Source: Rhodovulum imhoffii
GTDB taxonomy: Bacteria; Pseudomonadota; Alphaproteobacteria; Rhodobacterales; Rhodobacteraceae
NCBI RefSeq assembly: GCF_003046545.1
Contig: NZ_QAAA01000019.1
Span: 1 to 45,737, forward strand
Direction of reading: 5' to 3'
Length of the DNA: 45,737 bases
A program made the position numbers and the translations under genes. Shown one piece after another: positions 14,271 to 45,737 of this stretch. The notes below the pieces were generated by a model, which was not told the DNA's origin, ran no database searches, and worked only from the letters and a program-made list of their open reading frames with translations. Positions within the stretch are counted from its first letter, which is position 1. Each line of letters begins with the position of its first letter.

Positions 14271-14355
14271 GGTTAACTGCCTTGCGCTGCCTCTGCTTCG
14301 CCCGTTTTCCGGGTCTGGGGACAGTTTAGCGTGGAACAGGTCGCAAAACCAGTGC

Positions 14356-15759: not shown

Positions 15760-15857
15760 GCGTAACCCCGTCTTGACTTTTCCCACAGCTTGGGGACCGA
15801 CGCGCAAGGAATGTCAAGCGCGCGCCGGCCCCCTGAACTGTCTGCGCGGGCGTAATG

Positions 15858-16181
15858 TCAGACCAGGTAGTGCCACCCCACGATCAGCGGCAGCAACACC
15901 AGAATCGCCAGCGCAAACAGGAACGATGCGGTCCGGTTCCCGCCCATCCAGCGCATCGCGCCCGCAAGCGCGGGTGCCACCATCACGGCGGCGATCATCA
16001 ACGGAAAAAACGTGTGAAAGATCGGGACGCAATTGCCCGGCTGGGTGAAGTTCTTCTGGCAATACGGCACGATCTCATCCGAAAACAGCACCGCCAGGAT
16101 CAGCAGATAGGCCAAAAAGGCCATGACGGAATACGGCGGCACCCCGTCAAACTGCTTTTTTTCAGTCGCCTCAGTCTTCAT
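15858..16181 (-). CDS. small membrane protein between mraY and murD
   Basis: The ATG at 16181, preceded by AGGAGG four bases upstream, gives 107 residues. An ATG at 16199 overlapping the mraY stop is the alternative and would add 6 residues. There are three hydrophobic segments (YSVMAFLAYLLILAVLF, FFPLMIAAVMVAPALAGA, SFLFALAILVLLPLIVG) and two cysteines in the loop between the first two (CQKNFTQPGNC). The family is not recognised. It is co-oriented and closely spaced between mraY and murD, so it belongs to the dcw transcript. Confidence 0.75.
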   Translation of the reverse strand: MKTEATEKKQFDGVPPYSVMAFLAYLLILAVLFSDEIVPYCQKNFTQPGNCVPIFHTFFPLMIAAVMVAPALAGAMRWMGGNRTASFLFALAILVLLPLIVGWHYLV

Positions 16182-16198
16182 CTGTCCTCCTATCGGCA

Positions 16199-17284: not shown

Positions 17285-17299
17285 CTGTAAAAGTCCTTG

Positions 17300-18733: not shown

Positions 18734-20217
18734 GACACCGCCCCGTCCAAAGCGGCGACTGCGACACTGGCCTGCTCCACATCATCGAAGGGGTAAACGT
18801 TCTCCCCCACGATCTGCCCGGTTTCATGTCCCTTGCCCGCAATCAGCAGCGCATCGCCTGCCTCCAACGCATCCACACCGCGCAATATGGCCTCCGCCCG
18901 GTCGCCGACCTCGGTCGCCTCTGGGCAGCCCGCCATAACCTCGGCGCGGATAGTGGCGGCATCCTCGGTCCGGGGGTTGTCATCGGTTACGATGACAAGA
19001 TCGGCGTTCTTCGCCGCCGCCTGCCCCATCAACGGGCGCTTGCCCCGGTCACGGTCGCCCCCCGCACCGAACACGACCACGATCCGTCCCATGACATGCG
19101 GACGCAAAGATCGCAGCGCGGAAACCAGCGCGCCGGGTTTGTGCGAGTAATCCACGAACACCGCCGCGCCGTTGCCCCGCGTCGCTGCCAGTTCCATCCG
19201 CCCCCGGACGGTCTCCAGCTCCGACAACACCGGGAAAACCCGTTCCGGTATCTCACCCGCGCCGATCGCCAGCCCCGCCGCCGCCAGAACGTTTTCTGCC
19301 TGGAACCCACCAATAAGTTCCAGCCGGGTCTGATGTGGCGCCCCCTGCCACGCAAAACGCAGGGTCTGGCCCGTCGCATCATAGGCCTGGGCAAGGATGC
19401 GCAGGTCGCAATCCTGCCCCCGCCCGATGGTCAGCAGGCCCCGCGTGCGGGCACGCGCATGCCCCAGCATCTGCACCCCGCGCGGGTCATCCGTATTGAC
19501 GACAGCCACGCCGTCCTCGGGCAGGATACGATCGAACAGGCCGACCTTCGCATTGAAGTAATCGTCGAAATCCTTGTGGTAATCGAGGTGATCCTGACTG
19601 AAATTCGTGAATGCCGCCGCCTTGATCGCCACCCCGTCAAGCCGCCGCTGCGCAAGCCCGTGACTCGAGGCCTCCATCGCGGCATGGGTAACGCCATGCG
19701 CAGCCATCTCCGCCAGAGCACGGTGCAGGGCGATCGGCTCCGGCGTGGTGTGGGTCAGCGGCGCCTGCCACGCCCCCTGAACGCCCATCGTGCCGATGCT
19801 GCATGCCTTGCGCCCCAACCCTTCCCAGATCTGGCGGGTGAAATTGACCACCGAGGTCTTTCCCGATGTCCCCGTCACCGCCACGACCGTGCCCGGCTGG
19901 CGCCCGAAGAACAACGCCGCCGCACAGGCCAGCGCCTGTCGCGGATCTTCGGTCACCACGACCGCCGCGGCACTACCGGCCAGTTCGTCCCTTGCGATCT
20001 CCGCCCCTGCCCGGTCGGTCAGGATGGCAGATGCGCCCATGCGCAAGGCGAAAGTGATGAACTCCGCACCATGGATATTCGTACCCGGAAGCGCCCCGAA
20101 CAAATGCCCCGGCCGGACCTCGCGACTATCCACCGACAGCCCCGTCACCGGAACGTCATGGCCGCCCCTCGACTGCAACCCGAGGGCAGAAAGAGTGATT
20201 TTCGCCGGATCAGCCAT
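18730..20217 (-). CDS. murE: UDP-MurNAc-L-Ala-D-Glu--meso-DAP ligase MurE
   Basis: MurE adds the third residue of the stem peptide. The 495-residue protein has the ATP loop VTGTSGKTSVVNF (about residues 114-126), the TTPEP block and the C-terminal substrate motif DNPR in VTDDNPRTED. DNPR is the signature of meso-diaminopimelate-adding MurE, as expected for a Gram-negative. It lies 17 bp after ftsI and overlaps murF by 4 bases. Confidence 0.98.
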   Translation of the reverse strand: MADPAKITLSALGLQSRGGHDVPVTGLSVDSREVRPGHLFGALPGTNIHGAEFITFALRMGASAILTDRAGAEIARDELAGSAAAVVVTEDPRQALACAAALFFGRQPGTVVAVTGTSGKTSVVNFTRQIWEGLGRKACSIGTMGVQGAWQAPLTHTTPEPIALHRALAEMAAHGVTHAAMEASSHGLAQRRLDGVAIKAAAFTNFSQDHLDYHKDFDDYFNAKVGLFDRILPEDGVAVVNTDDPRGVQMLGHARARTRGLLTIGRGQDCDLRILAQAYDATGQTLRFAWQGAPHQTRLELIGGFQAENVLAAAGLAIGAGEIPERVFPVLSELETVRGRMELAATRGNGAAVFVDYSHKPGALVSALRSLRPHVMGRIVVVFGAGGDRDRGKRPLMGQAAAKNADLVIVTDDNPRTEDAATIRAEVMAGCPEATEVGDRAEAILRGVDALEAGDALLIAGKGHETGQIVGENVYPFDDVEQASVAVAALDGAVS

Positions 20218-24373: not shown

Positions 24374-25435
24374 TCAGGCCACACCGCCACGTACCATCCC
24401 TTCGGCAAGGCGGGCATAAGCCTCCGCCAACGGGCCGTCGCCGGCGGCGACAGGCGCACCGGCATCCCCGCCCTGCCGCACCTCCAGGGCCAGCGGCAGT
24501 TCCCCCAGAAACGGCACACCGATTTTTGCGGCCTCCGCACGCACGCCGCCATGGCCGAAGATATGCGCCTCATGCCCGCAATTGGGGCAGATATAGCCGG
24601 ACATGTTCTCGATCAGGCCCAGAACCGGGGTCTTGAGCTTGTTGAACATGTCGATCGCCTTGCGAGCGTCCAGCAGCGCCACATCCTGCGGCGTGGACAC
24701 AACCAGCGCCCCCGTCAGGTTCGTGCGCTGACAAAGCGTCAACTGCACGTCCCCCGTACCGGGAGGCAGGTCGACGATCAGCACATCGAGTTCCCCCCAA
24801 TGCACCTGCCCCAGCATCTGCTGAAGCGCCCCCATCAGCATCGGCCCGCGCCAGACGACCGCCTGCCCATCCTCCAGCATCAGGCCGATGGACATCAACG
24901 TCACGCCATGTGCCTGCGGCGGCAGGATGGTCTTGCCACCGGGTGTGGCACCGGGGCGTCCGCTGACCCCCATCATGCGCGGAACCGACGGCCCGTGGAT
25001 ATCGGCATCGAGAAGCCCCACGCGCCGCCCCTGCCGTGCAAGTGCCACTGCAAGATTGGTCGCGACGGTGGATTTGCCCACCCCGCCCTTGCCGGATGCA
25101 ACGGCGACAATCCGCTCCACCCCGGTCAGCGGAATCTCCTCCGGCGTCGGATGCCGGCCGATCCTGATTCCGGGCGCGGGCCTTGACGCTGCGGGCGCGG
25201 TCAGCACAACAGACACCGTCCCGACCCCCTCCAGCGCGGCAAGCGCCGCCTGGGCGCGGGCACGCACATCTTCCAGCGCCTCCGCCTGGGTCGCGTCTGC
25301 CGCCTCGATGACGAAGCGAACGGTCGTCCCCTCAACCGTCAGGGCACGTACCATGTCCCGATCGATGAGGGTCCCGCCGCCGGGTATCTCCAGGCGGGAC
25401 AATACGGAAAGAACCTCGTTACGGGTTACGGGCAT
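24374..25435 (-). CDS. mrp: Mrp/ApbC family iron-sulfur cluster carrier ATPase
   Basis: Mrp (ApbC) is a P-loop ATPase that binds and hands on Fe-S clusters in the cytoplasm. The ATG at 25435 is preceded by GGAGGT at good distance and gives 353 residues; an ATG four codons earlier is an alternative. An N-terminal MIP18/DUF59-like domain (about residues 1-95) precedes the deviant Walker A ASGKGGVGKST and DADIHGPSVPRMMG. The cluster-binding pair is in NMSGYICPNCG. A second member of this superfamily lies in the molybdoenzyme operon at 35688-36725. Confidence 0.95.
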   Translation of the reverse strand: MPVTRNEVLSVLSRLEIPGGGTLIDRDMVRALTVEGTTVRFVIEAADATQAEALEDVRARAQAALAALEGVGTVSVVLTAPAASRPAPGIRIGRHPTPEEIPLTGVERIVAVASGKGGVGKSTVATNLAVALARQGRRVGLLDADIHGPSVPRMMGVSGRPGATPGGKTILPPQAHGVTLMSIGLMLEDGQAVVWRGPMLMGALQQMLGQVHWGELDVLIVDLPPGTGDVQLTLCQRTNLTGALVVSTPQDVALLDARKAIDMFNKLKTPVLGLIENMSGYICPNCGHEAHIFGHGGVRAEAAKIGVPFLGELPLALEVRQGGDAGAPVAAGDGPLAEAYARLAEGMVRGGVA

Positions 25436-25668
25436 CGGCACCTCCATCTCTGGGCCTAACTTGGCGCCTGAGCGGGCAAGAGCAAGCGAAAAGAGCCATA
25501 ACGCAAAACCGGGATTCTCGGGAAAGGGGTTAAATTAACTTATGCGTTTTCTGCATGGCAGAAATCCGAAAACACCCATTGTGCAGATGCAGCATAGTAT
25601 TATCTTGGAAGCATCAACGGAAACGGGGCTTCACTCCCGTCTCGGCGACACCACAGGACGCAACGCAA

Positions 25669-33667: not shown

Positions 33668-33862
33668 ATGCAGCAGGACGTGTTCGATAGCCTTCACTAT
33701 GTCACCAAACGGCACAACAAGTACGGTATTCGCGTGCGGGTGCACGAGGATTTGCGCCCTGTTGTTGGCAAGCGCGAGATCGCTAAAAGCCTACGCACGA
33801 GTGATCCCGTGGCGCCCAAGCGGATTTACCATGAGGTTTTGGCCTCGGTTCTGGTCGCTCAA
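33668..33862 (+). pseudogene. phage-type tyrosine integrase, N-terminal stump
   Basis: From the ATG at 33668 about 62 codons read YVTKRHNKYGIRVRVHEDLR, then VVGKREIAKSLRTSDPVAPKR. This is the N-terminal SAM-like/DUF6538 domain of phage and island integrases (usually ..RRG..Y.FRRRVP.DLRP.LGK.EI..SL.TSD...AKR). After about residue 60 the similarity stops and the frame runs into the antisense of the next gene's 3' end. No catalytic domain (R...HxxR..Y) is present. Its place right behind tRNA-Gly is typical of an integrated island whose integrase has since been cut by a deletion or rearrangement. The right limit is approximate. Confidence 0.75.
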
Positions 33863-35691
33863 TCCGCAGCCTCCCGCCGGAGGAGGCACCCGCCGTCGCC
33901 TGCCGCCAGAACCACCCCCCCCACAGCAGTAACCGCGCGCAAACCGCTCTCGACCCCGGTTGGTTCCGAAATCCAGCGGTTCCCGTCATGGGACATGGCC
34001 GCGCCGGAACTCCCAACTGCGAAAGCGGCATCTTCCGTACCTGCGACCGCAAGCAGATCGTGCCGCGCCCTGGCCGCAGAAATGCGCCAGCGTGTTCCAT
34101 CGAAATGGCCTAATGTTCCCGCAAGGCCAACAACGAAAATGTCATTGAGGCCACGCCCCCAGACACCGAACAGAAACCGTTCGGTCCCAGCGTTGAACGC
34201 CTTCCAGTCCGTGCCGTTCCACCGCAACACAAGACCGAAATCCCCCACCGCCAGAAGATGCCTGTCATCCGGCCCCCACAGACCGTAGAGCGCATTTTTC
34301 GTCCCCGAAACCGCCCGCCGCCAGCCAGCAGAATCCCGGTGAAGGATGAGCCCTTCGTCCCCGGCAGCAAAAACCGTTCCCGCGTCATCCGACCACAACG
34401 CAAGCAGCGTCGTATTTGGCATCAGATCAAATTCACACCGCCAGGATCGGCCGTCAAAATGGTACACCTTGCCCTGTTCCCCCGCGGCCAGAAGCCCGCC
34501 CTCCGGCGCGCGCGCCAGCGCACGCAGCCCAACCGGGCCGACCTTGGGCAGGGGCACCCACTTGTCCCGATCCTCGACCAGAACGGTGCCGGATTCGCCA
34601 CAGGCATAGGCTGTGCCGCTTTTCGGGTCCCGCCACACCCCCCACAATGTGTGCTCGGTTCCGCTGTCAAGTCTCCGCCAAGAGCTGGTCTTTTCCAGGC
34701 CGCAGATTGCCGGAGCCTCCTTCGGGGGAGGGCCGTTCGAAAGGATCGTCCCGAAATCTCCCACGGCCAGTACACCTCCCCCAGGCGCAGGAACCAACCC
34801 GTGCAGGTCGTGGGAGGTTCCGCTCTCTACCGGGGCCGGACCTTCTTCGGTCAGGCGCCGAATCATACCCCGGTCACCGGCGACAAGCACACCGTCCTCA
34901 TCCTCCATTACTGCCAGATCCCGCAACCGGGGAAGGGAGGCATCCGGGAAAAGCCTCTCGAACCGATCTTCCTCCAGCAGTACGAGATCCCCGCGAAATC
35001 CGTTCTCCGCCGCGAAGTAACGCCCGCCCGCCAGTAGAACCGTCCCCGGCGCGATCTCCAGCGCGGCCGTGAAGCCAGTCGAGACAGAGCAGGCAAGCGA
35101 ATTCCAATCGCCCTCAAGCGATCGGAGCAACACTATTCCCCCGTGCCCCGCGGCCAGGACCCGCCCATCGGACAAGCAAAGAACCGCGCGCAGATGGGCG
35201 CGAGTCCCCGAGTTTTCAGCCTCCCACAACACGCCGGACCAGCGCAGGATCATACCGTCATCCCCAACCGTGAAGGCGGTGCCGCCCGTCTGCCCATCAA
35301 TTGCGAACAGCGGCGTATTCTCTGGATGGGCTGCATATTTGCCCGCCCCATCGACCCGGCAACCGCGTACCCGGTGCCAGGCCCGGCCATCGTAGCGCAG
35401 GATCGCTCCCATCCAGCCCACCGCCCAAAGCTCGTTGCGGTTATTGCCCCAAAGAGCATGAAGCGGCACGGGGACGGGCACGTTCATCCGCGCCCAGACG
35501 GTACCGTCGAAGTGGAACACCGTGCCTTTGTCTCCCACGAGGAACGTCCCGGTTTTATCCGCCCATCCGCCCCAGAAAACGCCGTCGACAGTGGGCGTCT
35601 CTCCCCCAACCGGGTGCCAGGCATGGGATAGTGAGTTCCCGGCAAAGCGGCCCCGAAAAAGAGCCCGGCGGCTGACGGCGACGGTGGTCAT
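33859..35691 (-). CDS. beta-propeller-like repeat protein of the ddh-type operon, unknown function
   Basis: The 610-residue protein is built from many repeats of about 40-45 residues of the form W..V.SGT...LHALWG....ELWAVG..G.ILR.DG..W (for example GTVFHFDGTVWARM, GMILRWSGVLWEAE, GLVLRWNGTDWKAF). Such repeats form beta-propellers. There is no Sec signal. The N-terminus MTTVAVSRRALFRGRF has a twin-arginine-like SRRALFRG reminiscent of NapF-type proteins, but no hydrophobic stretch follows, so it is probably cytoplasmic. It starts within the stop of the Nbp35-like ATPase gene (4-base overlap) and is the last gene of the operon. A scaffold or maturation role for the molybdoenzyme is only an inference from position. 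Confidence 0.85.
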   Translation of the reverse strand: MTTVAVSRRALFRGRFAGNSLSHAWHPVGGETPTVDGVFWGGWADKTGTFLVGDKGTVFHFDGTVWARMNVPVPVPLHALWGNNRNELWAVGWMGAILRYDGRAWHRVRGCRVDGAGKYAAHPENTPLFAIDGQTGGTAFTVGDDGMILRWSGVLWEAENSGTRAHLRAVLCLSDGRVLAAGHGGIVLLRSLEGDWNSLACSVSTGFTAALEIAPGTVLLAGGRYFAAENGFRGDLVLLEEDRFERLFPDASLPRLRDLAVMEDEDGVLVAGDRGMIRRLTEEGPAPVESGTSHDLHGLVPAPGGGVLAVGDFGTILSNGPPPKEAPAICGLEKTSSWRRLDSGTEHTLWGVWRDPKSGTAYACGESGTVLVEDRDKWVPLPKVGPVGLRALARAPEGGLLAAGEQGKVYHFDGRSWRCEFDLMPNTTLLALWSDDAGTVFAAGDEGLILHRDSAGWRRAVSGTKNALYGLWGPDDRHLLAVGDFGLVLRWNGTDWKAFNAGTERFLFGVWGRGLNDIFVVGLAGTLGHFDGTRWRISAARARHDLLAVAGTEDAAFAVGSSGAAMSHDGNRWISEPTGVESGLRAVTAVGGVVLAAGDGGCLLRREAAD

Positions 35692-36725
35692 CTGTCTGCT
35701 CTGGCCAATCTGGAAAGGCGCGCGGCTTCGTCAACAAGCAATGCGGCGGCCTCTCCGGCTATGTCCACGGGCAACCCGTCCACAAGGGCTCGCATCCCCA
35801 GGCCGGACATCTCTGCGGCGAGCCCCTCCTGAAAAGCGGCACGCGCGGCTTCCACCGCCGCCCTGATCAAAGGCCGGAAGGCGTGTGCTGCTGCGCCGTC
35901 CGGCTGCGCGGCAACCACCGGGACCCCGGTGTCGGAGCCAAGCGCCAGTTCGGGAACCAGCGGAATCCTCGCCAGCCGGGCGATTCCAAGTGCCTCCAGC
36001 GCGTCCCCAAATCCCGCGTCGGGGAACAGATGAAATTCGCCGCCACACTGGGGGCAGGTAACACCTGCCATGTTCTCCACCGCACCGAGTATCGGCAGCC
36101 CCCGTTCCTGGCAAAAGCGCGCGGCTTTCAGGCTGTCCATCTGCGCCACCGCCTGAGGCGTAGACACCAGAACCGCCGAAGCATTGTATCCTTCCAGCAG
36201 GTCGCACAGGGTGATCAGTTCGTTGCCGGTACCGGGAGGCATGTCGACCACCATCGTGTCCAGCGGTCCCCAGTCGAAACTGCCGATTAGGTGATGCAGA
36301 AAGTCATGTTTGTAAGCGTCGCGCCAGACAATCGGCACGCTGTCCTCCGCCAAAAGGAACGCCAAAGACCCCACCCGGAGGGGAAACGCCCCCCCTGCAC
36401 CACCGAAAACCCCCGGCGTCAGGCCCGACGGAGCCGGGCGGGAACGCGTTTCAAGCAGACCGAAGAAACGACTTTGATTCGGCCCGTGAATATCGGCATC
36501 CGCCAGGCCCACGCGCTGCCCCTGTGCCGCAAGCCCCACCGCAAGATTGGCCGCGACGGTGCTTTTGCCTACACCTCCCTTGTTGGAAAGAACGAGCAGC
36601 ACCTGCCCGATTTTCTCCAGCCGCGCAGAGATCAACGCCTTGTTGTGCCGGGACTTGTCCCGATGGCAGGTTTGTTCTTGGGGGCAGAATTGACAGGCGT
36701 GCCCAAGACCGCATTCGGCGTTCAC
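35688..36725 (-). CDS. Nbp35/Mrp-like Fe-S P-loop ATPase in the molybdoenzyme operon
   Basis: The 345-residue protein starts with GTG at 36725, overlapping the gamma-subunit stop by 4 bases. It has the deviant Walker A SNKGGVGKST (47-56), DADIHGPNQSRFFG, VVDMPPGTGNE and a C-terminal CPQCG (C224, C227), all features of Mrp/Nbp35 Fe-S scaffold ATPases. Unusually, its N-terminus carries C5, C11, C14 and C20; the part CQFCPQEQTC has the CX2CX5C spacing of eukaryotic Nbp35, which binds a [4Fe-4S] cluster there. It lacks the N-terminal MIP18-like domain of the housekeeping Mrp at 24374-25435. A dedicated Fe-S loading or maturation role for the alpha/beta subunits is likely from context but not shown. 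Confidence 0.85.
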   Translation of the reverse strand: MNAECGLGHACQFCPQEQTCHRDKSRHNKALISARLEKIGQVLLVLSNKGGVGKSTVAANLAVGLAAQGQRVGLADADIHGPNQSRFFGLLETRSRPAPSGLTPGVFGGAGGAFPLRVGSLAFLLAEDSVPIVWRDAYKHDFLHHLIGSFDWGPLDTMVVDMPPGTGNELITLCDLLEGYNASAVLVSTPQAVAQMDSLKAARFCQERGLPILGAVENMAGVTCPQCGGEFHLFPDAGFGDALEALGIARLARIPLVPELALGSDTGVPVVAAQPDGAAAHAFRPLIRAAVEAARAAFQEGLAAEMSGLGMRALVDGLPVDIAGEAAALLVDEAARLSRLARADR

Positions 36726-37489
36726 GGGATCGCTCCCGGCTCAACAAGAACCCACCCCTCGGAAACGCTCTTGAGCCCGTCCCGCTGAGCCTCGCTGCCC
36801 TGCCAGAGTGCAAAAGCGATCGGCACCACGGCACGGTTGAGCGCAACCTCATACTCGTCGCGCACCGCCAGCGGGCGCGACATTACCACCGTCCACTCGT
36901 TTGGGTCGCCGGGGTTATCAGTGTAAAGCCCATCTCCGGAAACCGTCTGTATCGGCAACCGGGTCAGGCTGCCATAGCCGCCAGCGGCAAGGTTCTGGAT
37001 CTGGTGGCCATCGGCACTCCAATACCAGATATTGACCGGCTGATCCGGCCCGGTCCCCATAAGGTAGGAGGTGGTGTCGTCGCCCAGCGAAAACTGCACC
37101 GCCGCGCCATCACGAAACCTGTCGCGCCCGGTTTGGCGGTCAGCCGTGTCGTCACGCCAGCGCAGCCGCACGTAGAACCGCTCTGACGTATGGGCAAACG
37201 TGACGTACAAATCCTGATCAGGGGTATCGTAGTTCACCCGCAATTCAACCGACCTGTGGACGGCCGGTGCCGGAACCATCCGCACGCGGTATTCGGGCAG
37301 GCGCTCCCATATGATGTCGTCAGGATCGTTGACCGATCGCAGATAGACCCCCTCGGGGATCTTCGCTGCGGCAACGATATCCCCGGCCTCCAGACGCAGC
37401 ACGTTGGCTTCCACCACCGTTTCGGCGGGAGCCGCCCATGGAGCGATGAAAGCAACCAGGAAAGCGAGTGTGCTTGGAAGATGTTGCAT
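36722..37489 (-). CDS. ddhC: type II DMSO reductase family gamma subunit, heme b (DdhC-like)
   Basis: The 255-residue protein starts with a Sec signal peptide (STLAFLVAFIAPWAAPA, cleavage near residue 22) and belongs to the ethylbenzene-dehydrogenase-type heme-b domain family. In relatives the heme iron is held by a Met and a Lys. Matching residues are the Met in TTSYLMGTGPDQPVN and the Lys in RDGLKSVSEGWVLVE. The subunit passes electrons from beta's Fe-S clusters to a soluble cytochrome c. It follows the chaperone gene with an 11-bp gap that holds GGAG. Confidence 0.85.
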   Translation of the reverse strand: MQHLPSTLAFLVAFIAPWAAPAETVVEANVLRLEAGDIVAAAKIPEGVYLRSVNDPDDIIWERLPEYRVRMVPAPAVHRSVELRVNYDTPDQDLYVTFAHTSERFYVRLRWRDDTADRQTGRDRFRDGAAVQFSLGDDTTSYLMGTGPDQPVNIWYWSADGHQIQNLAAGGYGSLTRLPIQTVSGDGLYTDNPGDPNEWTVVMSRPLAVRDEYEVALNRAVVPIAFALWQGSEAQRDGLKSVSEGWVLVEPGAIP

Positions 37490-37500
37490 GGGATGTCTCC

Positions 37501-38232
37501 TTATCCCCAGAGGGTCTGCGGCACGGAACAGGCCGGCGCAGCGGCAATTTCGGGATCGCGATACGGGCCCGTTCGCGCCTCAAGAGCTTTAATCTGGCCA
37601 TCGGCCAACCGGGCGAGGTCCTGCACAAGCTGAGCCAGTGTCGGGTCGGGCATACCGGGTGCGCACGCGCCCAGGCAAGCCGAGATCTCTGTCAGGCTGG
37701 GCGCAAGAAACCGGGACAGGAAGTCCCGTTGCGCGCGTTGAAACGAACCGCAATCGCGCCCCCGCTCCTGCGCGCGCGCCTCCAGGTGGCAAAGGACCGC
37801 CATAAACTCCAGCATCGCGCTCAGGTGATCGGGTTCATCGGTCCGGCCCTCGTCACCGGTGGCAGCTCGCAGGCCGAAATGACCATAGAACCTGGCCACG
37901 TTCAGCATGAACACTGGCCGGGACAACCCCGCCAGCAGCGCCAGGTGATCGCCAGCGAGGAGTGACGCGAAGGGTTTACCTCCGCGCCCATGCAGGAAGG
38001 CGGCAATATAGCCGGCCTCGAACACCTGAAAGTCATCCGTGGGCGCAGGCGCAGGCCAGGGCTGGCCGGTGGTTTCGGCCCAGGCGGCCCCAAAGGCGGC
38101 ATTGAACGTACCCGCACCCAGCGCAGAATGAAACTCCTTAGAAGGATGAGCAAAGGCCAGAGCTGAAAGACGCCATAGCGTTTCTCGGGCGCGGGGCGGG
38201 CCACAGCGGGTGGAGGGCGCAACGGGATACAT
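37501..38232 (-). CDS. ddhD: TorD-family molybdoenzyme chaperone (DdhD-like)
   Basis: The 243-residue helical protein has the TorD/DmsD/NarJ pattern: ETLWRLSALAFAHPSKEF near the N-terminus, then YIAAFLHGRGGKP, HLSAMLEFMAVLCHLEA, and a C-terminal helix pair ending in LAQLVQDLARLADGQI. Such chaperones bind the Tat signal of the catalytic subunit and keep it in the cytoplasm until the cofactor is in place. The start overlaps the beta-subunit stop by one base (TGATG). Position third, between beta and gamma, is the hallmark A-B-D-C order of ddh, ser and clr operons. Confidence 0.87.
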   Translation of the reverse strand: MYPVAPSTRCGPPRARETLWRLSALAFAHPSKEFHSALGAGTFNAAFGAAWAETTGQPWPAPAPTDDFQVFEAGYIAAFLHGRGGKPFASLLAGDHLALLAGLSRPVFMLNVARFYGHFGLRAATGDEGRTDEPDHLSAMLEFMAVLCHLEARAQERGRDCGSFQRAQRDFLSRFLAPSLTEISACLGACAPGMPDPTLAQLVQDLARLADGQIKALEARTGPYRDPEIAAAPACSVPQTLWG

Positions 38233-39212
38233 CAGCTGAGCTTAAACATATCTGCGTGACGGTAACCGATGAGTGTATCCATCAACTCGCTGTCACCGCC
38301 GTCTGCCTTTTTCTGACGCTCTGCCGCCAGCGTTTTGAGTGCTACGGCAACGCCATCGCCGAACAGGCTTTCCAGATAGCCTTGGGGAATCCGCTCTTCG
38401 TTGGTGGGGACGCTGTTCTCGTCGTATTTGGGGGGCGCCAGCGGCGGAACATAGAAAACGTTCGGCTCCGTTCCCCATTCGGCATGGAGCGGCAACGCAA
38501 CCTTCCAACGGTCTACCAGCGTATGTATCGGCCCTTCCTCGTCATCGCGGTAACCCACCCAGCGGATACGGCCCGCACATTGTCGCGCACAGGCGTTTGC
38601 AAGACCTTTTTCGATGCGCGGATAGCAAAAAATGCATTTCTCGGACTTGGAAATTTCCTCATTGAAATACACCTTCTTGTAGGGGCACGCGGTCACACAG
38701 TAGCGGTACCCGCGGCAGCGTTCCTGATCAATCAGAACGATCCCGTCTTCCTGGCGCTTGTAGATCGCATTGCGCGAACAAGCCGCAAGGCAGGCCGGAT
38801 TGGTGCAATGGTTACAGATGCGAGGCAGGTAGAAGTAATAGCTGTTGGGATAGTCGCCCTCCCCCTGGTCCTCATCCCAGTTCGCACCCCATGTCGGCTT
38901 GACGTTTGGGCGCAGCCACGGGTCGGTCCCCGTCATCAGGGCCTCTTCGTAGTTATAATCCCACGGGATACCGTAATCTTCGGCCGAGGGCGTAATACCA
39001 AGCTTGAGCGCCCCTTCAGCATCGAACCCCCCGCCCATCTGGGCGTAATTACGCGGGTACCCGGTACCGGGCATCGTTTCGACGTTGTTCCAGTACATGT
39101 ATTCCCGCCCGTTCCGGTTGGTCCACTGGAGCTTGCAGGCTGAGGTGCAAGTGTGACAGCCGATACACTTGTTGAGGTCCATCACCATGCAAAGCTGACG
39201 TTTGACGGCCAT
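38232..39212 (-). CDS. ddhB: type II DMSO reductase family beta subunit, Fe-S protein (DdhB-like)
   Basis: The 326-residue protein has four cysteine groups. The first is C16, C19, C22, C26 (KCIGCHTCTSACK), followed by CNHCTNPACLAACSR, CRGYRYCVTACPYKK and CIFCYPRIEKGLANACARQC. In the third group the second Cys is replaced by Tyr (CRGYRYC), as in type II enzymes where that site holds a [3Fe-4S] instead of a [4Fe-4S] cluster. So one 3Fe and three 4Fe clusters are expected. No signal peptide is present; the subunit would be carried out with the Tat-dependent alpha subunit. It lies 52 bp after alpha. Confidence 0.92.
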   Translation of the reverse strand: MAVKRQLCMVMDLNKCIGCHTCTSACKLQWTNRNGREYMYWNNVETMPGTGYPRNYAQMGGGFDAEGALKLGITPSAEDYGIPWDYNYEEALMTGTDPWLRPNVKPTWGANWDEDQGEGDYPNSYYFYLPRICNHCTNPACLAACSRNAIYKRQEDGIVLIDQERCRGYRYCVTACPYKKVYFNEEISKSEKCIFCYPRIEKGLANACARQCAGRIRWVGYRDDEEGPIHTLVDRWKVALPLHAEWGTEPNVFYVPPLAPPKYDENSVPTNEERIPQGYLESLFGDGVAVALKTLAAERQKKADGGDSELMDTLIGYRHADMFKLS

Positions 39213-39264
39213 ATTCTATCTCCCTTGGTTCCCGGGACGGCGACAAACTCACCGAATGGACTCC

Positions 39265-41997
39265 TTATACGGGTTCCACGTCCACGCCGCTCTCATGCGC
39301 CAGTTGGTTTGCGTTCCATTTAAAAAGCTTGAAGCCCAGATGCCCCCAGCCACCCGCAAGCTCGAGCGGCTGAATCAGTGTCGCCATGGCGTTGTTCATC
39401 GGTTTCCACTGGTCGTACTGGTGCGGTTCCCAGCCATGCTCCATCATGATCGAGGTCTCGGGCAGACTGGGGTAGAATTTGGCCTGGGCAAAGAACTCGC
39501 CCGCACCGTTGAAGATTCGCACCTTGGATCCATCGGCGATGCCCTTGCGCGCCGCCAGCCTGGGGTTGATGTAGATGTTGGGCTCACCCCTTTGCAGGCG
39601 CATCATGAACTTGTTTGACCGCCAGTTGGAATGAATGCCCCAGCGCGTGTGTGGCGAGTAAAACGAAAGCGGATAGGACGAGGCCTCGGGCCCAGCATTC
39701 AGGCGTGCGGTGGGAACCGTAGCGCCAAGCCGCACGAAGGTCGGGTGATCACAAAAGAAAGTTATGCGCCCCGTCAGCGTATCGTACGGCTTCTTGCCCT
39801 CAGTCTGGGCAACGAAAGGATTATAGGGTTCGTCGGGGGGGAGCGGCTGGTTGGCGCCGGCTTCGGCGGTCATCACGAAAAAGCCGCGCTCCGCCCCTTC
39901 CTCGAGACTGACTCCTCCAATCTCCGGACTGTTGTCGACAAGCCACTTCGTCGCGTCGTAGTCGGTCATAAGCATCCCACCCATGGTGTAGTCGTCATGG
40001 ATGGTATGAAAATCCCGGGTTACAGCGCCGTCCTCGTAACTGGTGATGCTGCGGGCGATGGCGCGCTCCTGAATCTTCTGCGTCAACAGCACCATGATAT
40101 CCCAGTCGGGCCTGGCCTCGCCGATCGGATCGACCGGCTTGGAAAAGACATTCATGAAACGATGATACCCGACGGTGCGCAAATCCCACGCTTCGTAATG
40201 GCTGGCGGCAGGCAGCAAGTAGTCGGCCCATTGCGCGGTACTGTCCATGCGTACATTGATATCAACAAAGAGTTCTGAAACTTCCTCCAGAATTCGCGCG
40301 CGGTACTTGTCGGCGAACTTGTTGCGCCGGAACTTGTTGTCGGCAATAGAGATCAGGCCCTTCATCTCTCCGTGATAAGGCATCCAGCCCTGACCGACGC
40401 TTTCATCGATCATCTCCTGAAGCTCGTCGAGATCGAAGCCCACGCGTTCCTTCAGCTTGGCCGGATCGTAATGCGCACGCGCGTGGTCGATCATGTGGCC
40501 GCGGACGAATTCCCCCATGCCGCCCGGCTCCAGTCGCGGAAGCTTGCGAAACCCGAACAGGGCCAATTCCAGCCATTTCGGATGGTTCCAATCAATCCAG
40601 GATGTATCGATGCCCCCCGCCTTGCCGCCGTGACCGGTAAGACCCAGCATCAGCGCCTGCGCCCAGCCTGTGTAGATTCCGTTGGAATAGCGCCCGATAT
40701 TGAACCCGTGCATCAGAATCGCCTTGCGGGCTCTGGCGAAGGCCCGGGCCTCTTGCCGGACAGTTTCAGGAGCCACGCCGGTAACGTCGGCAGTGTCCTC
40801 GGGGCTGTACCTGGCCGCTTCGGTCTTGACCTTTTCGAATACGGTTGTCACCGGGAGGCCCCCGACCTCGAACGTGCCCTCCAGCGCCGGGTCCACGCCG
40901 GCGAGCGCGATGGTCTTCTCATCGGAGCCCATCGAGCCCTTGATCGGCACCGCCGCTCCCGAAACGAGATCCCAGTGGTAAAACACCTGATCCGACCCGC
41001 CATCGACGATGTCAGCCTCACGCAAAAGCCTGCCGGTATCGGCGCGCACCAGCACCGGCAGGTCGGTTTGTTCCTTCATAAAACCGGGTTTATAGAGTTC
41101 TTCCGCGATAATGACGTTCACGAAAGACATCGCGAGAAACGGGTCGGTACCGGGTTTGACCGAAATCCACAGATCCGCGTGGATCGAGGATGGATTATAG
41201 TCCGGCGCAACCGAGACGACTCGGGCACCGTTCCACTTGGCCTCCCAGATGTAATGGGCATCGGGAATGCGCGTCGCGTTCGGATTGAACAGCGACATCA
41301 TGATGTAATCGGCATCAAACCACGCATCCGAGGTAAAGCTTTCCAGCGGGTTGCCATAGGCCAGGTGCGCGCCAGTGTTCAGGTCGCCAACATCGGTGAA
41401 GATATCGAGTTGCACCCCCCCTACCAGCGACGCAAACCTGTAAGGCGCGGCAAAACGGACCATCGACAGATTGCCCGAGCCAGTATGGGTCATCAGCTTT
41501 CCGGGACCGTACGTTTCGTAGATGTCGATGATCTTGTCGGCGATCTCGGTTGTGATCTCTTCCCAGGACATACGCTGCCACTTGCCTTCGCCGCGTTCGC
41601 CCACCCGCTTGAGCGGGTAGCGCAAGCGGTCGCCTTCATACATCGCCGCGGAATGGATGGACCCTTTCTGGCATCCGCGCGGGTTGGGGTCTGGCACATC
41701 CGGGGCGATCTGCGGATAAGCCGCCAGTTGTTCTTCGCGCAGGACAATACCGTCCTTGACATAGACGTTGAAGGCGCAGTTCCCCACGCAGTTGATACAA
41801 TGGGCCGACTTGCCGATCTTGTCCCAGGTAAACTCGCGGCGATAGAGGTCCTCCCAGTCACGGTAGGGATATTCCTCACCCAGCGTATCTTCCAGCGGCT
41901 CCAGCCGGTTCAGGGCCCAGGCGCGGTTGGCGGCGATAACCCCCGCCCCCGTCAGCGAACTGGTTCTCAGGAAATCCCGACGCTTCATGCGCAACAT
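39265..41997 (-). CDS. ddhA: type II DMSO reductase family molybdopterin subunit, probable dimethylsulfide dehydrogenase alpha
   Basis: The ATG at 41997, with GGAGG six bases upstream, gives 910 residues, the length I recall for DdhA of Rhodovulum sulfidophilum. A Tat signal (MKRRDFLRTS, cleavage near AWA-L28) marks a periplasmic enzyme. The FS0 cluster motif is H66-X3-C70-X3-C74-X34-C109; His in place of the first Cys defines type II enzymes (NarG, Ddh, Ebd, Ser, Clr). Blocks such as YPYRDWEDLYR, THTGSGNLSMVRFAAPYRFA and ATRIPDAHYIWEAKWNGA agree closely with my memory of DdhA. Expected reaction: oxidation of dimethylsulfide to DMSO. Selenate or chlorate reductases share the operon order, so the substrate is probable, not proven. 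Confidence 0.83.
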   Translation of the reverse strand: MLRMKRRDFLRTSSLTGAGVIAANRAWALNRLEPLEDTLGEEYPYRDWEDLYRREFTWDKIGKSAHCINCVGNCAFNVYVKDGIVLREEQLAAYPQIAPDVPDPNPRGCQKGSIHSAAMYEGDRLRYPLKRVGERGEGKWQRMSWEEITTEIADKIIDIYETYGPGKLMTHTGSGNLSMVRFAAPYRFASLVGGVQLDIFTDVGDLNTGAHLAYGNPLESFTSDAWFDADYIMMSLFNPNATRIPDAHYIWEAKWNGARVVSVAPDYNPSSIHADLWISVKPGTDPFLAMSFVNVIIAEELYKPGFMKEQTDLPVLVRADTGRLLREADIVDGGSDQVFYHWDLVSGAAVPIKGSMGSDEKTIALAGVDPALEGTFEVGGLPVTTVFEKVKTEAARYSPEDTADVTGVAPETVRQEARAFARARKAILMHGFNIGRYSNGIYTGWAQALMLGLTGHGGKAGGIDTSWIDWNHPKWLELALFGFRKLPRLEPGGMGEFVRGHMIDHARAHYDPAKLKERVGFDLDELQEMIDESVGQGWMPYHGEMKGLISIADNKFRRNKFADKYRARILEEVSELFVDINVRMDSTAQWADYLLPAASHYEAWDLRTVGYHRFMNVFSKPVDPIGEARPDWDIMVLLTQKIQERAIARSITSYEDGAVTRDFHTIHDDYTMGGMLMTDYDATKWLVDNSPEIGGVSLEEGAERGFFVMTAEAGANQPLPPDEPYNPFVAQTEGKKPYDTLTGRITFFCDHPTFVRLGATVPTARLNAGPEASSYPLSFYSPHTRWGIHSNWRSNKFMMRLQRGEPNIYINPRLAARKGIADGSKVRIFNGAGEFFAQAKFYPSLPETSIMMEHGWEPHQYDQWKPMNNAMATLIQPLELAGGWGHLGFKLFKWNANQLAHESGVDVEPV

Positions 41998-42079
41998 GGT
42001 TGTCCTCCCTCGTGACGTACCACGCATTTTGGGGCGGCGCGGACAAAAGAAGGATAGCGACCGGAACCCGGTCAAAGGC

Positions 42080-42115
42080 TGCAAACTTGTTAAAAAGTGT
42101 AAACGGGTTGTAAAC
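42080..42115. promoter_or_regulatory. phased TGTAAAC repeats between ddhA and the sensor kinase gene
   Basis: In the 207-bp divergent intergenic region the plus strand has TGTTAAA at 42088, TGTAAAC at 42098 and TGTAAAC at 42109, steps of 10 and 11 bp; TGCAAAC at 42080 may be a further half-site. Direct repeats one helical turn apart are the usual target of OmpR/PhoB-type regulators, and such a regulator is encoded at 44532-45230. The site could control both divergent operons. Confidence 0.55.
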
Positions 42116-42204
42116 AGCTCGGGCTGCCGCTTTGCAAATTCATTATTCCTGTTTCAATATCCCAAGCGAGCGGAACCGTGGGAGGCGGCACAGGCCGGGA
42201 ACGT

Positions 42205-44532
42205 ATGTCAGCCAGTATCAAAGCCAGCCCATCCGGAGCCTCGGCCAAGATACCCGCCTTGACGGCGTATCTGGAACAGGTCACCGATCAGCTGTTGCAC
42301 CAGTCCATCCTGTTTGCCAAGCGCAATGCCTATGCGCCCTTCACAACGACCATCCGCGCCGCATGGCTGGAGGCGATTCTCAGCCTTAACGAGGCGATTC
42401 TCGGTTATCTCGGCCATGATCGTCCAAACACGTCGGGACCTCTTGCAACTGTCGACTACGCGCGGGATCCAAGACTGGCCCGAATGCGCCAGATTGCACG
42501 ACAGCACCGCTCTCAGGGAGTTTCGCTCCAACTCTACCTCGGCCTGTTCAAGCATTTTCGACGGGTCTATCTGGACGCGTTGTCCAAAAGCGCCACGATC
42601 GGAACCGACGCCCTCCTCCAGCAAGTGCGCGACTTTTTCGATGAAAGCGAACTCAGCATCGTTGCGGACTGGACAACCACCGGGGATAACCAGAGACTAC
42701 GCGAGTTACAGGACCGGACCCGTCGCCTAATCCTTGAGAAAGACCGCTACTTCGCCATCTTCGAAAGCCTGCGCAACCCGGCGCTCCTGCTCGACCGGCA
42801 CCGCGCCATCGTTCACGGCAATCACGCCGCGGTGGAATTGTTCGTGGATGGAACCGAGGTCGGCGATAGCATATACTTGCGTTCACGCAAAACCCTACGC
42901 AGCCGGATGACCGCACGACTCGGCGATGCGCTGAAGCTCGACGAGGGGGCAGAGAAAACTCTCTGGATCGACACGCTTGCCGGGCGGCGCTGTTTCGACC
43001 TGCGCCTGCGGGTTCTGCACGACGCGGTTGAAAACATACCGCTTGGCTACCTGCTGCAGCTTTACGACGTTACCGCCCACCGCCACGCCACTGAAACCGC
43101 ACAACGGGCCGAGCGCCAGATGTCACGCTTTCTCGCCACGATGAGCCACGAGATCCGCACCCCGCTCCACAGCGTGCTTGGTGCTGCGGAACTCCTGCGC
43201 CGGGGTGACCGTAACGGACAAGAAAGCTACCTCGACGTGATCCAGAGCGCGGGCCAGTCCCTATTGCAAACACTCAACAACGTGCTGGATTATTCTAAGC
43301 TCGAAAGCGGCCTGCCCGAACCACGCCCCGCCGATACCGACCTGCTGGCCGCGCTGGAGACATTGTGCGCCATCGCCTCAGTCGGACCGGACGCGGCGCG
43401 TTCTTCCGTGTCCCTGGAAATCGCACGAGATGTCCCCACCCACGTCCGAATAGATTGGGCCATGGTGCGACAAGTGCTGACCAACCTCGTCACGAACGCG
43501 CTGCGCCACGATCAGGGCGGCGGGGTCAAATTGCGGGTCGCAAGAACGCAGGAAAGATTGCGGTTCGAAGTCGCCGATCATGGACCCGGCCTGCCGGAAT
43601 GCGAGGCACGGGCGCTTTTTCTACCGTTCAGCGAAACGAGCCCGCGCCATACGGCCGAAGGAGGCGCAGGGCTGGGGCTGGCGATCTCGCGCGAGTTGGT
43701 CCGGGCAATGGGCGGGCAGATCGGGTTCAGCAATACCGGGATCGGGGCGGTGGTCTGGTTCGACGTGCCCTGCACTCCCGTTCTGAACGATCGCGACGAC
43801 AGCACACCCCCCCAAACCGCCCCGCATGGCCGCCGTGGGTGGCGATGTCTTCTGATCGATGACGACAGGATCGGGGCGATCATTTCCTCCCACCACCTCC
43901 AACGGATCGGTTTCGAAACTGACCATGCCGGAAGCCTTGCCGAAGCGCGCAAGGCGTTAGAAACCTCACACTACGACGCGTTTGTGATCGATTACCTTCT
44001 GCCTGACGGCAAAGGCCCGGATTTCGTCCGCGACCTGCGCAGCGGCAACGCCGGTGCCTGTGCGAGGGTGGTCGGATTGACGGCGAATGTAGAAGCGCTG
44101 CGCGCCTCCGCCGATCTTGGAGAGGACTTCGACGTGATCCTTGCCAAGCCCGCTGACGGGGCGACGCTGGCACAGGCGCTGCTTCCCTTCGCGGCAAAAC
44201 CGGTCCGCAACTCTCCCCCCGGCAGATCCAATCTCGATGGGCTTTCCGGGGAAACCATATCCGCCATGGCAAAGGCGTTCATTACCCAGTGGGAAAGTTT
44301 TCGCATCCGGTTGCGGCAGGACACTCATCGCAAAGAGCTTGGAGATATCGCACATCGTCTGGCCGGAAGCAGCGCGCAACTGGGACTGCACGACTTGGAA
44401 CATCTCCTGAACGAATTGGAGCGCCGCTGCGAGACAGACCCCTCGGATATTGCTGATGTCGTCAACCGGCTGGACTACCCGGTCACGGATTGGCTTCAGT
44501 GGCACGAGGCAAACTTTGGGTGCGACCCGTAA
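42205..44532 (+). CDS. TorS-type hybrid sensor histidine kinase (HisKA-HATPase-REC-HPt)
   Basis: From the ATG at 42205 (GGGA five bases upstream; a GTG at 42178 is the alternative) the protein has 775 residues. Residues 1 to about 150 form an unrecognised all-helical domain (for example QGVSLQLYLGLFKHFRRVYL), followed by a PAS-like segment (YFAIFESLRNPALLLDRHRA). Next come HisKA with H315 in SHEIRTPLHSVLG, HATPase_c (NLVTNALRHD, GGAGLGLAIS), REC with D596 in VIDYLLPDGKG, and HPt with H717 in IAHRLAGSSAQLG. There is no membrane segment, so unlike TorS it senses a cytoplasmic signal. It is divergent from ddhA and coupled to the regulator gene, so it probably controls the operon. Confidence 0.92.
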   Translation: MSASIKASPSGASAKIPALTAYLEQVTDQLLHQSILFAKRNAYAPFTTTIRAAWLEAILSLNEAILGYLGHDRPNTSGPLATVDYARDPRLARMRQIARQHRSQGVSLQLYLGLFKHFRRVYLDALSKSATIGTDALLQQVRDFFDESELSIVADWTTTGDNQRLRELQDRTRRLILEKDRYFAIFESLRNPALLLDRHRAIVHGNHAAVELFVDGTEVGDSIYLRSRKTLRSRMTARLGDALKLDEGAEKTLWIDTLAGRRCFDLRLRVLHDAVENIPLGYLLQLYDVTAHRHATETAQRAERQMSRFLATMSHEIRTPLHSVLGAAELLRRGDRNGQESYLDVIQSAGQSLLQTLNNVLDYSKLESGLPEPRPADTDLLAALETLCAIASVGPDAARSSVSLEIARDVPTHVRIDWAMVRQVLTNLVTNALRHDQGGGVKLRVARTQERLRFEVADHGPGLPECEARALFLPFSETSPRHTAEGGAGLGLAISRELVRAMGGQIGFSNTGIGAVVWFDVPCTPVLNDRDDSTPPQTAPHGRRGWRCLLIDDDRIGAIISSHHLQRIGFETDHAGSLAEARKALETSHYDAFVIDYLLPDGKGPDFVRDLRSGNAGACARVVGLTANVEALRASADLGEDFDVILAKPADGATLAQALLPFAAKPVRNSPPGRSNLDGLSGETISAMAKAFITQWESFRIRLRQDTHRKELGDIAHRLAGSSAQLGLHDLEHLLNELERRCETDPSDIADVVNRLDYPVTDWLQWHEANFGCDP

Positions 44533-45230
44533 TGGTGGTGCGTCCCCCTTCCAACAACCTTGTCCTTGGCGTCGAGGATGACGAAGTCGTGCAGATCATG
44601 CTGGCCGAAGTCGTACGACTGGCAGGTGGCTGCTACAAAGCGGCGTGCAGCGCACAAGAAGCAGAGCGCCTTCTGGCGGAGAAAGACTTCGCGCTGGTTC
44701 TGCTGGACCGCCGCCTGCCCGACAGCGATGGCCTGTTACTGATCGAGGCCATCCGTCGGCTTGGGGATTGCCCGGTGATCGTTCTCTCGGAGCTCGACGG
44801 CTCCCATGACCGCTTGCTTGGCCTGGGGCTTGGCGCGACGGAGTATGTTTCCAAACCCTTCAACCCCGCAGAACTGAGCAGCCGAATTCGGTTTTTTCTC
44901 AATCGCCCGGAAAAGGATGCCCAGGACCTTGGCAAACCGATCTCGGCCGGGCGTCTTTGCTTGTTTCCGCTTTCGCGGCGGCTTTCCGTCGACGGCAGGG
45001 AAAGCTTCCTTCCCCCCGCCGAAGCACGCCTGTTTCAAGCGCTGCTGAGCCATCCCGGGGAAGCCCTTGACCGGGACCGACTGACACAGGCGGCCTGCGG
45101 TCGCGACTGGAGTCCGGGCGACCGCACGGTGGACGTTCTGATCGCGCGCTTGCGCAAACGGCTGCCGAAAACCGTCGCGCGCATCGTCACGGTTCACCGG
45201 CTTGGCTATCTGCTGGACCTTGCAAACTGA
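44532..45230 (+). CDS. OmpR-family response regulator
   Basis: The ATG at 44532 overlaps the kinase stop (TAATG), which ties its translation to the kinase. The 232-residue protein has a receiver domain with acidic pair EDDE, phospho-acceptor D59 in VLLDRRLPDSDG and K in VSKPFNPAEL. A winged-helix DNA-binding domain follows (EARLFQALLSHPGEALDRDR, DRTVDVLIARLRKRLP, VHRLGYLL). The pair resembles TorS/TorR in layout. Its likely target is the TGTAAAC repeat region in front of ddhA. Confidence 0.93.
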   Translation: MVVRPPSNNLVLGVEDDEVVQIMLAEVVRLAGGCYKAACSAQEAERLLAEKDFALVLLDRRLPDSDGLLLIEAIRRLGDCPVIVLSELDGSHDRLLGLGLGATEYVSKPFNPAELSSRIRFFLNRPEKDAQDLGKPISAGRLCLFPLSRRLSVDGRESFLPPAEARLFQALLSHPGEALDRDRLTQAACGRDWSPGDRTVDVLIARLRKRLPKTVARIVTVHRLGYLLDLAN

Positions 45231-45247
45231 CGTATACACCCTGCGAG

Positions 45248-45737
45248 TGTGAATCGGCATGCAAAATTGACCCACTTTGGTGGGTTATGAGCGAGTAGAA
45301 TTGACCCACCTGTTTTCGTTAGCCGTTCAGTCCCGGCATCTGGTGGATCGGATCGACGATGAATCTGTCCGGCTCTGAAGTCCAGACTTTGCAGACATAT
45401 TCGTATGGCGTGAGGCCGCTGAGCGTCTTCAGCCTACGAGCGAAGTTGCAGGCAGCCATGAAGTCCGCGAGATGGGTGCGGAGCTGATCATGGCTGTCGT
45501 AGTGGAAGCGTTTGACGGTGGCCTCCTTGATCGTGCGGTTCATCCGCTCGACTTGGCCATTGGTCCAGGGATGGTTGGGTTTGGTGAGCCGATGCTCGAT
45601 CCCATTGGCTTCGCAAATCATGTCGAAGCGCATCTGCCGTGAGTAGGCGGCATTCCGGTTCCTGGGCTGTTCGGCAAATTGGATGCCGTTATCGGTCAGG
45701 ATCGTGTGGATGCGGTAGGGGACGGCCTCGAGCAGAT
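45248..45737 (-). mobile_element. IS481-type element, 3' end region (cut by window edge)
   Basis: The transposase C-terminus (45319 onward) is followed on its 3' side by about 70 bp that probably end at TGTGAATCGG (45248), since IS481 elements usually end in TGT. This part contains a repeated ATTGACCCAC motif (about 45266 and 45298). The terminus lies 17 bp behind the response regulator gene. The other end is outside the window. Confidence 0.6.
45319..45737 (-). CDS. IS481-family transposase, C-terminal part (cut by window edge)
   Basis: About 139 codons are visible and the reading frame continues beyond the right edge. The DDE integrase core shows the second Asp in HTILTDNGIQF and the Glu in NHPWTNGQVERMNRT, followed by KEATVKRFHYDSHDQLRTHL and LTPYEYVCKVW, all typical of IS481-family transposases. 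The visible part looks intact. It belongs to the same transposase group as the fragment at 1-65 and has the same orientation. Confidence 0.92.
   Translation of the reverse strand, partial: LLEAVPYRIHTILTDNGIQFAEQPRNRNAAYSRQMRFDMICEANGIEHRLTKPNHPWTNGQVERMNRTIKEATVKRFHYDSHDQLRTHLADFMAACNFARRLKTLSGLTPYEYVCKVWTSEPDRFIVDPIHQMPGLNG

Follow-up and report, generated by a model that had tools for sequence, protein, structure and literature searches.

An Mrp/NBP35-type ATPase and a tandem beta-propeller accompany one clade of type II molybdoenzyme operons and may form a client-specific iron-sulfur loading module

We analysed a 45,737-nt stretch of Rhodovulum imhoffii DNA (NZ_QAAA01000019.1; hereafter the window, whose positions serve as coordinates), which carries a six-gene operon for a molybdoenzyme of the type II dimethyl sulfoxide (DMSO) reductase family. 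The genes for alpha, beta, a chaperone and gamma are followed by two more, one for an Mrp/NBP35-type P-loop ATPase and one for a tandem beta-propeller, and within the samples searched these two families are nearly exclusive to one enzyme clade. We propose, with a probability of roughly 0.58, that the ATPase and the propeller constitute a client-specific iron-sulfur (Fe-S) loading module, which would act in the cytoplasm before export by the twin-arginine translocation (Tat) system. All six genes, as seen in the list of open reading frames (ORFs) and in the DNA itself, lie on the minus strand:

39265-41997, minus strand: alpha, the catalytic subunit, 910 amino acids (aa) from an inner ATG; the mechanical ORF begins further up, at 42084.
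38232-39212, minus strand: beta, with Fe-S clusters, 326 aa; TIGR03478 score 578.8 against a cut-off of 480.7.
37501-38232, minus strand: chaperone of the NarJ/TorD family (DdhD/ClrD type), 243 aa; TIGR03482 score 155.8 against 152.3.
36722-37489, minus strand: gamma, of the heme b type, 255 aa; TIGR03477 score 203.8 against 169.85; PF09459.
35688-36725, minus strand: Mrp/NBP35-type P-loop ATPase, 345 aa, GTG start; PF10609 at 3.3e-66.
33859-35691, minus strand: tandem beta-propeller, 610 aa, from an AlphaFold2 model.

The genes are tightly packed. A gap of 52 bases separates alpha from beta, beta and chaperone overlap by 1 base, the chaperone/gamma gap is 11, and 4-base overlaps join gamma to the ATPase (36722-36725) and the ATPase to the propeller (35688-35691). 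An earlier, sequence-only reading of this DNA had described an operon of this span with these two overlaps, an alpha-beta-chaperone-gamma order, a fifth gene for an Nbp35/Mrp-like ATPase and a sixth for a 610-residue propeller-like protein. The ORFs and the DNA confirmed the layout, four type II models recognised the first four products, PF10609 matched the fifth, and AlphaFold2 predicted propellers for the sixth. The arrangement is not a matter of chance, because the same genes recur in the same order in most related loci. Conservation of the two extra genes, together with their ratios of nonsynonymous to synonymous substitution (dN/dS) of 0.03-0.33, rules out that they are spurious ORFs.

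Membership in the type II family is supported by all four subunit and chaperone models, which score above the curated NCBI cut-offs (for alpha, TIGR03479 gave 1272.8 bits against 984.75). Alignment also revealed the family hallmarks in alpha, a conserved Asp for molybdenum (Mo) and a His/3 Cys site for the cluster FS0. The FS0 site consists of H66/C70/C74/C109 and is invariant in the 4 sequences compared, and D205, the presumed Mo ligand, aligns with position 223 of EbDH 2ivf, where we take D223 to be the Mo ligand. Section 3 of PMC8840923 gives both a conserved Asp and the His ligand as features of the type II subfamily. By eye, the leader of alpha is of the Tat type (KRRDFL) and that of gamma of the Sec type.

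An alignment scan with alpha over one genome each of 84,980 species gave 252 relatives, of which the best 80, at 77 loci, were kept. This sample splits into 46 clade loci, with an alpha at least 68% identical to that of the window, and 31 distant loci at 45% or less; enzymes of intermediate identity (45% to 68%) may have escaped it. The ATPase gene was found in 43 of the 46 clade loci and the propeller gene in 41, the latter count including a shortened ORF (L037) and one interrupted by N (L066). The three clade loci with neither gene (L029, L053 and L073) end inside the operon; for L053 and L073, a second contig of the genome carries gamma, ATPase and propeller side by side. The interruption of the propeller in L066 (Labrenzia) is probably an assembly matter: the break is a run of N and the remainder matches elsewhere on the contig. 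At the distant loci (ORFs of at least 70 aa, BLASTP at 1e-5) neither gene was found in any of the 31, of which 21 have at least 6 kb downstream of alpha, and BLASTP detected neither in the 18.7-22.7 kb fetched for the clr regions of Ideonella and Alicycliphilus. The 31 distant loci reject the pair as a general type II feature, and together with the clr regions they dispose of the sequence-only suggestion of a module general to type II enzymes.

The same association was seen across whole genomes. Among 121 genomes of the Halomonas alimentaria family, alpha (above the cut-off), the ATPase (E at most 1e-70) and the full-length propeller occurred in the same 8, one of which is the centre genome, chosen for having the operon; in these 8 all three genes stand on one contig, a few kb apart. 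Neither the ATPase nor a full-length propeller was found in any of the 113 enzyme-free genomes of that family; weak propeller matches (1e-10 to 1e-13) turned up in two genomes outside the 8, and one of the 8 gave a second match of this strength. In the window's own family (198 genomes) an alpha above the cut-off and a full-length propeller were found in the same 3; the 195 enzyme-free genomes had no full-length propeller (the ATPase was not searched there), and one other genome gave a partial match (5e-19). Over 398 genomes of the phylum, the only strong propeller match was in the window's genome (854.9 bits), with ten weak ones at 71.5 bits or less. The ATPase profile was matched at 1e-55 by 100 of 239 phylum genomes; the window's operon protein reached 553 bits and no other more than 214, and the other matches listed begin at profile position 39 or later, past the cysteine segment described below. 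In a class sample of 289, 4 genomes matched the single propeller sequence at 1e-5, at full length only that of the window; two others in this sample hold distant alphas, one (G116) without the pair in the stretches fetched and one (G202) on a contig that ends inside alpha. Plasmids searched at E 1e-10 yielded no propeller, and in viral contigs none was confirmed. The sequence-only reading had expected the two families to co-occur beside this operon type and not elsewhere, which held in the samples searched, and the outcome it had named as refuting, families mostly outside molybdoenzyme loci, was not seen there.

On a tree of 78 alpha sequences the pair is explained by one change, on a branch with a Shimodaira-Hasegawa-like approximate likelihood ratio support (SH-aLRT) of 100, when Rhodospira is scored as having the module on its ATPase alone, L053 and L073 via their second contigs, and L029 is left unscored. 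Pairwise distances follow those of alpha with Spearman coefficients of 0.90 for the ATPase, 0.93 for the propeller and 0.90 for beta, computed for the window and 39 loci without L037 and L066. Both extra genes are under purifying selection, with Nei-Gojobori dN/dS of 0.03-0.30 for the ATPase (8 pairs) and 0.05-0.33 for the propeller (7), beside 0.03-0.15 for alpha (8). The clade is hosted by alpha-, beta- and gammaproteobacteria, and because these classes are interleaved in places on the alpha tree, the operon seems to travel as a unit of six genes.

Three short segments of the two extra proteins bear on their possible function:

36666-36713, minus strand: N-terminal C-X5-C-X2-C-X5-C of the ATPase, residues 5-20, from an alignment of 44 sequences.
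36045-36056, minus strand: CPxC of the ATPase, residues 224-227; C224, P225 and C227 are invariant in the 44.
35650-35673, minus strand: SRRALFRG of the propeller, residues 7-14, a twin arginine in a low-confidence tail.

The ATPase shows the Mrp/NBP35 hallmarks, with a deviant Walker A (KGGVGKS) and CPxC invariant in 44 sequences beside the PF10609 match. Its closest PDB sequence is Cfd1 (6g2g, 5e-41), Foldseek places ApbC and Cfd1 at the top with Mrp-like HypB also high, and its best NCBIfam model, NF041136 (MrpORP), scores 231 bits, below the cut-off of 450. We reject that it is the housekeeping Mrp: a separate DUF59-type Mrp lies at 24374-25447 and is 43% identical in the matched part. Cys5, His9, Cys11, Phe13, Cys14 and Cys20 are invariant in 44 of 44 aligned ATPases, and the N-terminal four-cysteine motif was absent from all 23 non-operon Mrp proteins compared (24 loci were given, of which one had no usable ORF). 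In NBP35-type proteins CPxC is described, in passages of PMC8007109 and PMC6345978, as the site of a bridging labile [4Fe-4S] cluster, and in passages of PMC8007109 an N-terminal C-X13-C-X2-C-X5-C of Nbp35 and NUBP1 binds a stable one. Here the motif departs from the eukaryotic type, being C-X5-C-X2-C-X5-C in 44 of 44, with the last three cysteines at the same spacing. After CPxC the window ATPase continues for 118 residues (median of 43 sequences, 128; housekeeping Mrp, 67), and no further Pfam domain was found in this helical C-terminus. The two Rhodospira ATPases are the shortest there, with 79 and 80 residues (next shortest, 116), and lack a propeller; therefore the C-terminus may be the propeller binding site, a suggestion drawn from what is probably one event. 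A maturation role would fit the family and motifs, and we read the ATPase as the module's putative Fe-S carrier.

The window propeller matched no Pfam or NCBIfam model at E 0.001 and no PDB sequence. AlphaFold2, given 40 sequences, returned a string of blades at a mean predicted local distance difference test score (pLDDT) of 88.7, which we read as two seven-bladed propellers, the blades being counted by eye from strands and a repeated GDxG-type motif. The structures nearest to this model in Foldseek are tandem propellers such as 2ymu and AIP1 (1nr0); the whole-chain template modelling score is about 0.4 and its predicted counterpart (pTM) 0.63, and the mutual placement of the halves is not fixed by the model. 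Pfam WD40 was matched by 6 of 40 members (E at most 0.1, best 2e-6) and YCF48 (PF14870) weakly by 20 of 40 (E at most 0.1, best 4e-7), in neither case by the window protein. The proteins begin with [SDEGNA]RR, R8 and R9 being invariant in 40 of 40 full-length members, and pLDDT is below 50 at residues 1-11 and 13-22. There is no recognisable export signal, the twin arginine lacking a clear hydrophobic stretch: the best 13-residue hydropathy after RR has a median of 0.07 in 41 propellers (L037, with a shifted start, included) against 1.18 in 46 alphas. Tat export of the propeller is unlikely on this measure, though its range overlaps that of the alpha leaders. We read the propeller as a candidate adaptor.

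In the loading module as we picture it, the client would be the periplasmic alpha-beta-gamma molybdoenzyme encoded by the same operon. The ATPase would be a cytoplasmic [4Fe-4S] carrier, with a labile cluster bridging two monomers on CPxC and a second, stable cluster on the N-terminal four-cysteine motif, as in eukaryotic Nbp35, and it would hand clusters to apo-alpha (FS0) and apo-beta (FS1-FS4) held unexported. The tandem propeller would join carrier and client, its invariant twin-arginine tail perhaps docking on the operon's NarJ-family chaperone like a remnant Tat leader, and the alpha-beta pair would exit via Tat once the clusters and the Mo cofactor are inserted. There are precedents for such steps. 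Passages of PMC6345978 report that MrpORP passes Fe-S clusters in vitro to proteins of its own complex, and passages of PMC10609526 describe NapF as a cytoplasmic Fe-S protein needed for cluster reconstitution of NapA and placed before Tat export, the insertion of FS0 into NarG before the Mo cofactor, and the binding of a remnant Tat peptide by NarJ. More tentatively, the pair could be a single-client bacterial counterpart of the cytosolic iron-sulfur assembly (CIA) system, a convergent combination of an Nbp35-like carrier with an N-terminal cluster and a propeller targeting factor, whose twin-arginine tail would read the client's Tat chaperone and couple loading to export licensing.

Several observations weigh against the loading module or limit how far it can be taken. 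The same cluster set is presumably loaded in the case of the clr operons, which lack the pair; the pair is therefore not chemically required for this enzyme type. Both Rhodospira loci (L025 and L059) have the ATPase and no propeller in locus or genome. In Oceanisphaera, a second tandem copy of the operon (L163, 488-6199, with L039) contains the first four genes, alpha to gamma, but only an ATPase ORF of 123 residues, and it lacks a propeller; the two copies are 82% similar, the similarity ends near the start of the ATPase gene, and if both are active the factors of the first copy would have to act in trans. Of 41 relatives, 7 share the ATPase/propeller overlap of exactly 4 bases, and the gap in the rest is -1 to 104 (368 in L037, with its shortened ORF), and the gamma/ATPase gap ranges from -11 to 81 over 43 relatives and is -4 in none, with start codons picked by script. 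Close spacing of the genes is thus conserved and coupling via overlap is not. Given Rhodospira, the second Oceanisphaera copy and overlaps that are mostly not kept, the sequence-only claim that all six products are needed together was too strong. The first cysteine gap of the ATPase differs from the X13 of Nbp35, and four of the 41 propellers (L032, L041, L070 and L062) reach the alpha-leader hydropathy minimum of 0.78. Kinship of the propeller with Cia1 is not supported, because the propeller is not recognisably WD40. The genome searches scored the best few candidates per genome, and the co-occurrence counts are not phylogenetically independent.

The label 'ddh' for the operon also remains unproven, because one clade member sits near a chlorite dismutase gene; the R. 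sulfidophilum locus is absent from the 77 sampled loci. A chlorite dismutase gene is not present in the window, and over the sampled loci and 4 added ones a linked copy was found only in L053, from Stutzerimonas chloritidismutans AW-1, where a gene with 62.5% identity to the Ideonella chlorite dismutase is found about 2 kb from alpha and beta. At 6929-9587 of L053 this homologue adjoins the clade operon, along with a small cytochrome c and a transposase-like ORF, and transposase-like ORFs, named by eye, surround the region of alpha/beta and chlorite dismutase. The alpha/beta contig shares 1641 bases (99.8%) with the contig bearing the rest of the operon, which means that the assembly overlaps there or that two near-identical copies exist. 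A Pseudomonas metagenome-assembled genome (L052), 99.7% identical to L053 over 4038 bases, has all six genes. The chlorite dismutase link in L053 means that at least one operon of probable chlorate-reductase type carries the extra genes, in L053 on the second, overlapping contig.

Some related loci differ in other ways. In Rhodospira a DUF2478 gene (16227-16808 in L025, 16267-16845 in L059) overlaps the end of the ATPase gene at the propeller's place; the domain was identified by Pfam in L025 and by eye in L059. A Thiorhodococcus metagenome-assembled genome has two six-gene operons on separate contigs (L164 and L165). The Halomicrobium urmianum plasmid L022 bears, at 9860-19345, a haloarchaeal type II operon (alpha, beta, gamma, chaperone), after which come a protein that no Pfam model matches, a HEAT-repeat protein and a DUF59-type Mrp ATPase; in this single record a repeat protein and an Fe-S carrier have possibly become associated with the type II family independently. 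In 20 clade loci, mostly of gammaproteobacteria, a small c-type-cytochrome-like gene (CxACH, by eye; for example L055, 9391-9828) stands beside the operon and is a possible electron partner.

Upstream of alpha, outside the core module, lie regulatory neighbours:

42178-44532, plus strand: TorS-like hybrid histidine kinase, divergent from the operon, scoring below the TorS cut-off.
44490-45230, plus strand: OmpR-family response regulator, from Pfam/NCBIfam matches.
42079-42117, minus strand: GTTTACA direct repeats with 11-base spacing, a candidate response-regulator site.

Homologues of the kinase occur in 16 alphaproteobacterial clade loci. Of 17 alphaproteobacterial upstream regions, taken from the window and 16 relatives, 16 contain paired TTAC-like repeats at 11-base spacing under a loose pattern, and 9 have TTTAC in both copies; base-shuffled regions gave 0.6%. 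A scan for promoters and terminators gave nothing above shuffles. The operon and regulators are bordered by a DUF6538 fragment (33668-33858), a domain we take to be the start of tyrosine recombinases, and by an integrase-core fragment (45319-45633), and their G+C content is 61.4% (33859-45230) beside 63.6% in 1-33600. Operon and regulators are possibly an island.

The two extra proteins could instead serve quality control, sensing cluster occupancy and releasing the alpha-beta-chaperone complex to Tat only when complete, while the general Fe-S machinery and the housekeeping Mrp supply the clusters. Such a role could use the propeller's invariant Tat-like twin-arginine tail to compete for or stabilise the chaperone, and the genome does possess the DUF59-type Mrp that it calls for; with its four invariant N-terminal cysteines and CPxC, the ATPase looks more like a carrier or scaffold than like a sensor, and we consider this explanation unlikely. 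Rather less plausible is that the pair serves wider clients and is merely co-regulated with the enzyme, for example under anaerobic or dimethyl sulfide/oxyanion conditions. Mrp proteins elsewhere do act on several clients and the propeller is dispensable in Rhodospira, but such a role fits poorly with the single change on the enzyme tree, with the 113 of 113 enzyme-free Halomonas-family genomes that have neither the ATPase nor a full-length propeller, and with the 195 of 195 in the window's family that have no full-length propeller.

The least probable alternative is that the module handles another cofactor, either the heme b of gamma or the Mo cofactor, in the manner of a HypB-like metal-loading ATPase. 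The high rank of Mrp-like HypB in Foldseek points that way, as does the DUF2478 gene at the propeller's place in Rhodospira, a family that we take to be found near molybdate genes. However, the leader of gamma, judged by eye, is of the Sec type, and heme insertion probably takes place in the periplasm; the ATPase motifs are those of Fe-S carriers, and the pair is missing from clr operons, whose Mo cofactor and gamma are of the same kind.

How five Fe-S clusters are loaded into such periplasmic molybdoenzymes before Tat export is poorly known. If the loading module exists as proposed, a conserved carrier and adaptor dedicated to one enzyme would open Fe-S targeting to tests in a simple genetic system and would hint that producing this branch in a foreign host may take further genes beyond the known four; the pair would also be a second marker for the branch beside alpha. 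Neither the enzyme nor the ATPase family nor the fold is new in kind; no description of the fixed ATPase-propeller pairing or its clade restriction was found in the literature searched, which consisted of titles, abstracts and passages, with most subscription papers outside it. Passages of the review PMC10609526 cover NarJ-type chaperones and NapF and hold no mention of Mrp, ApbC or a propeller.

Among known systems, the clrABDC operons of Ideonella and Alicycliphilus match the first four genes, structural and chaperone, in content and order, but cytochrome c and mobB come next instead of the ATPase and propeller. Propellers of the YCF48/BNR type are a recurring theme among assembly factors and share the fold, with weak PF14870 matches in half of the members; here there are two propellers, and the window protein has no YCF48 match. 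The N-terminus of NapF is twin-arginine-like. NapF resembles the proposed module as a cytoplasmic accessory factor in Fe-S assembly of a Tat-exported molybdoenzyme, and differs in being an Fe-S protein with four tetra-cysteine motifs rather than an ATPase or propeller (passages of PMC10609526). MrpORP/Orp9 of Desulfovibrio is likewise an Mrp/NBP35 ATPase, belonging to the ORP complex whose Fe-S proteins it is proposed to mature; it has a Di-Nase domain and N-terminal cysteines of other spacing, and no propeller partner appears in the passages of PMC6345978. Nbp35-Cfd1 shares CPxC and an N-terminal motif ending in C-X2-C-X5-C (passages of PMC8007109). Unlike Nbp35-Cfd1 and Cia1, the proteins described here have X5 instead of X13, a tandem non-WD40 propeller and one client operon, with no evidence of descent. 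In the wider CIA system the beta-propeller partner is Cia1, and the parallel between Nbp35 with its Cia1 propeller and the pair described here would be at most one of function.

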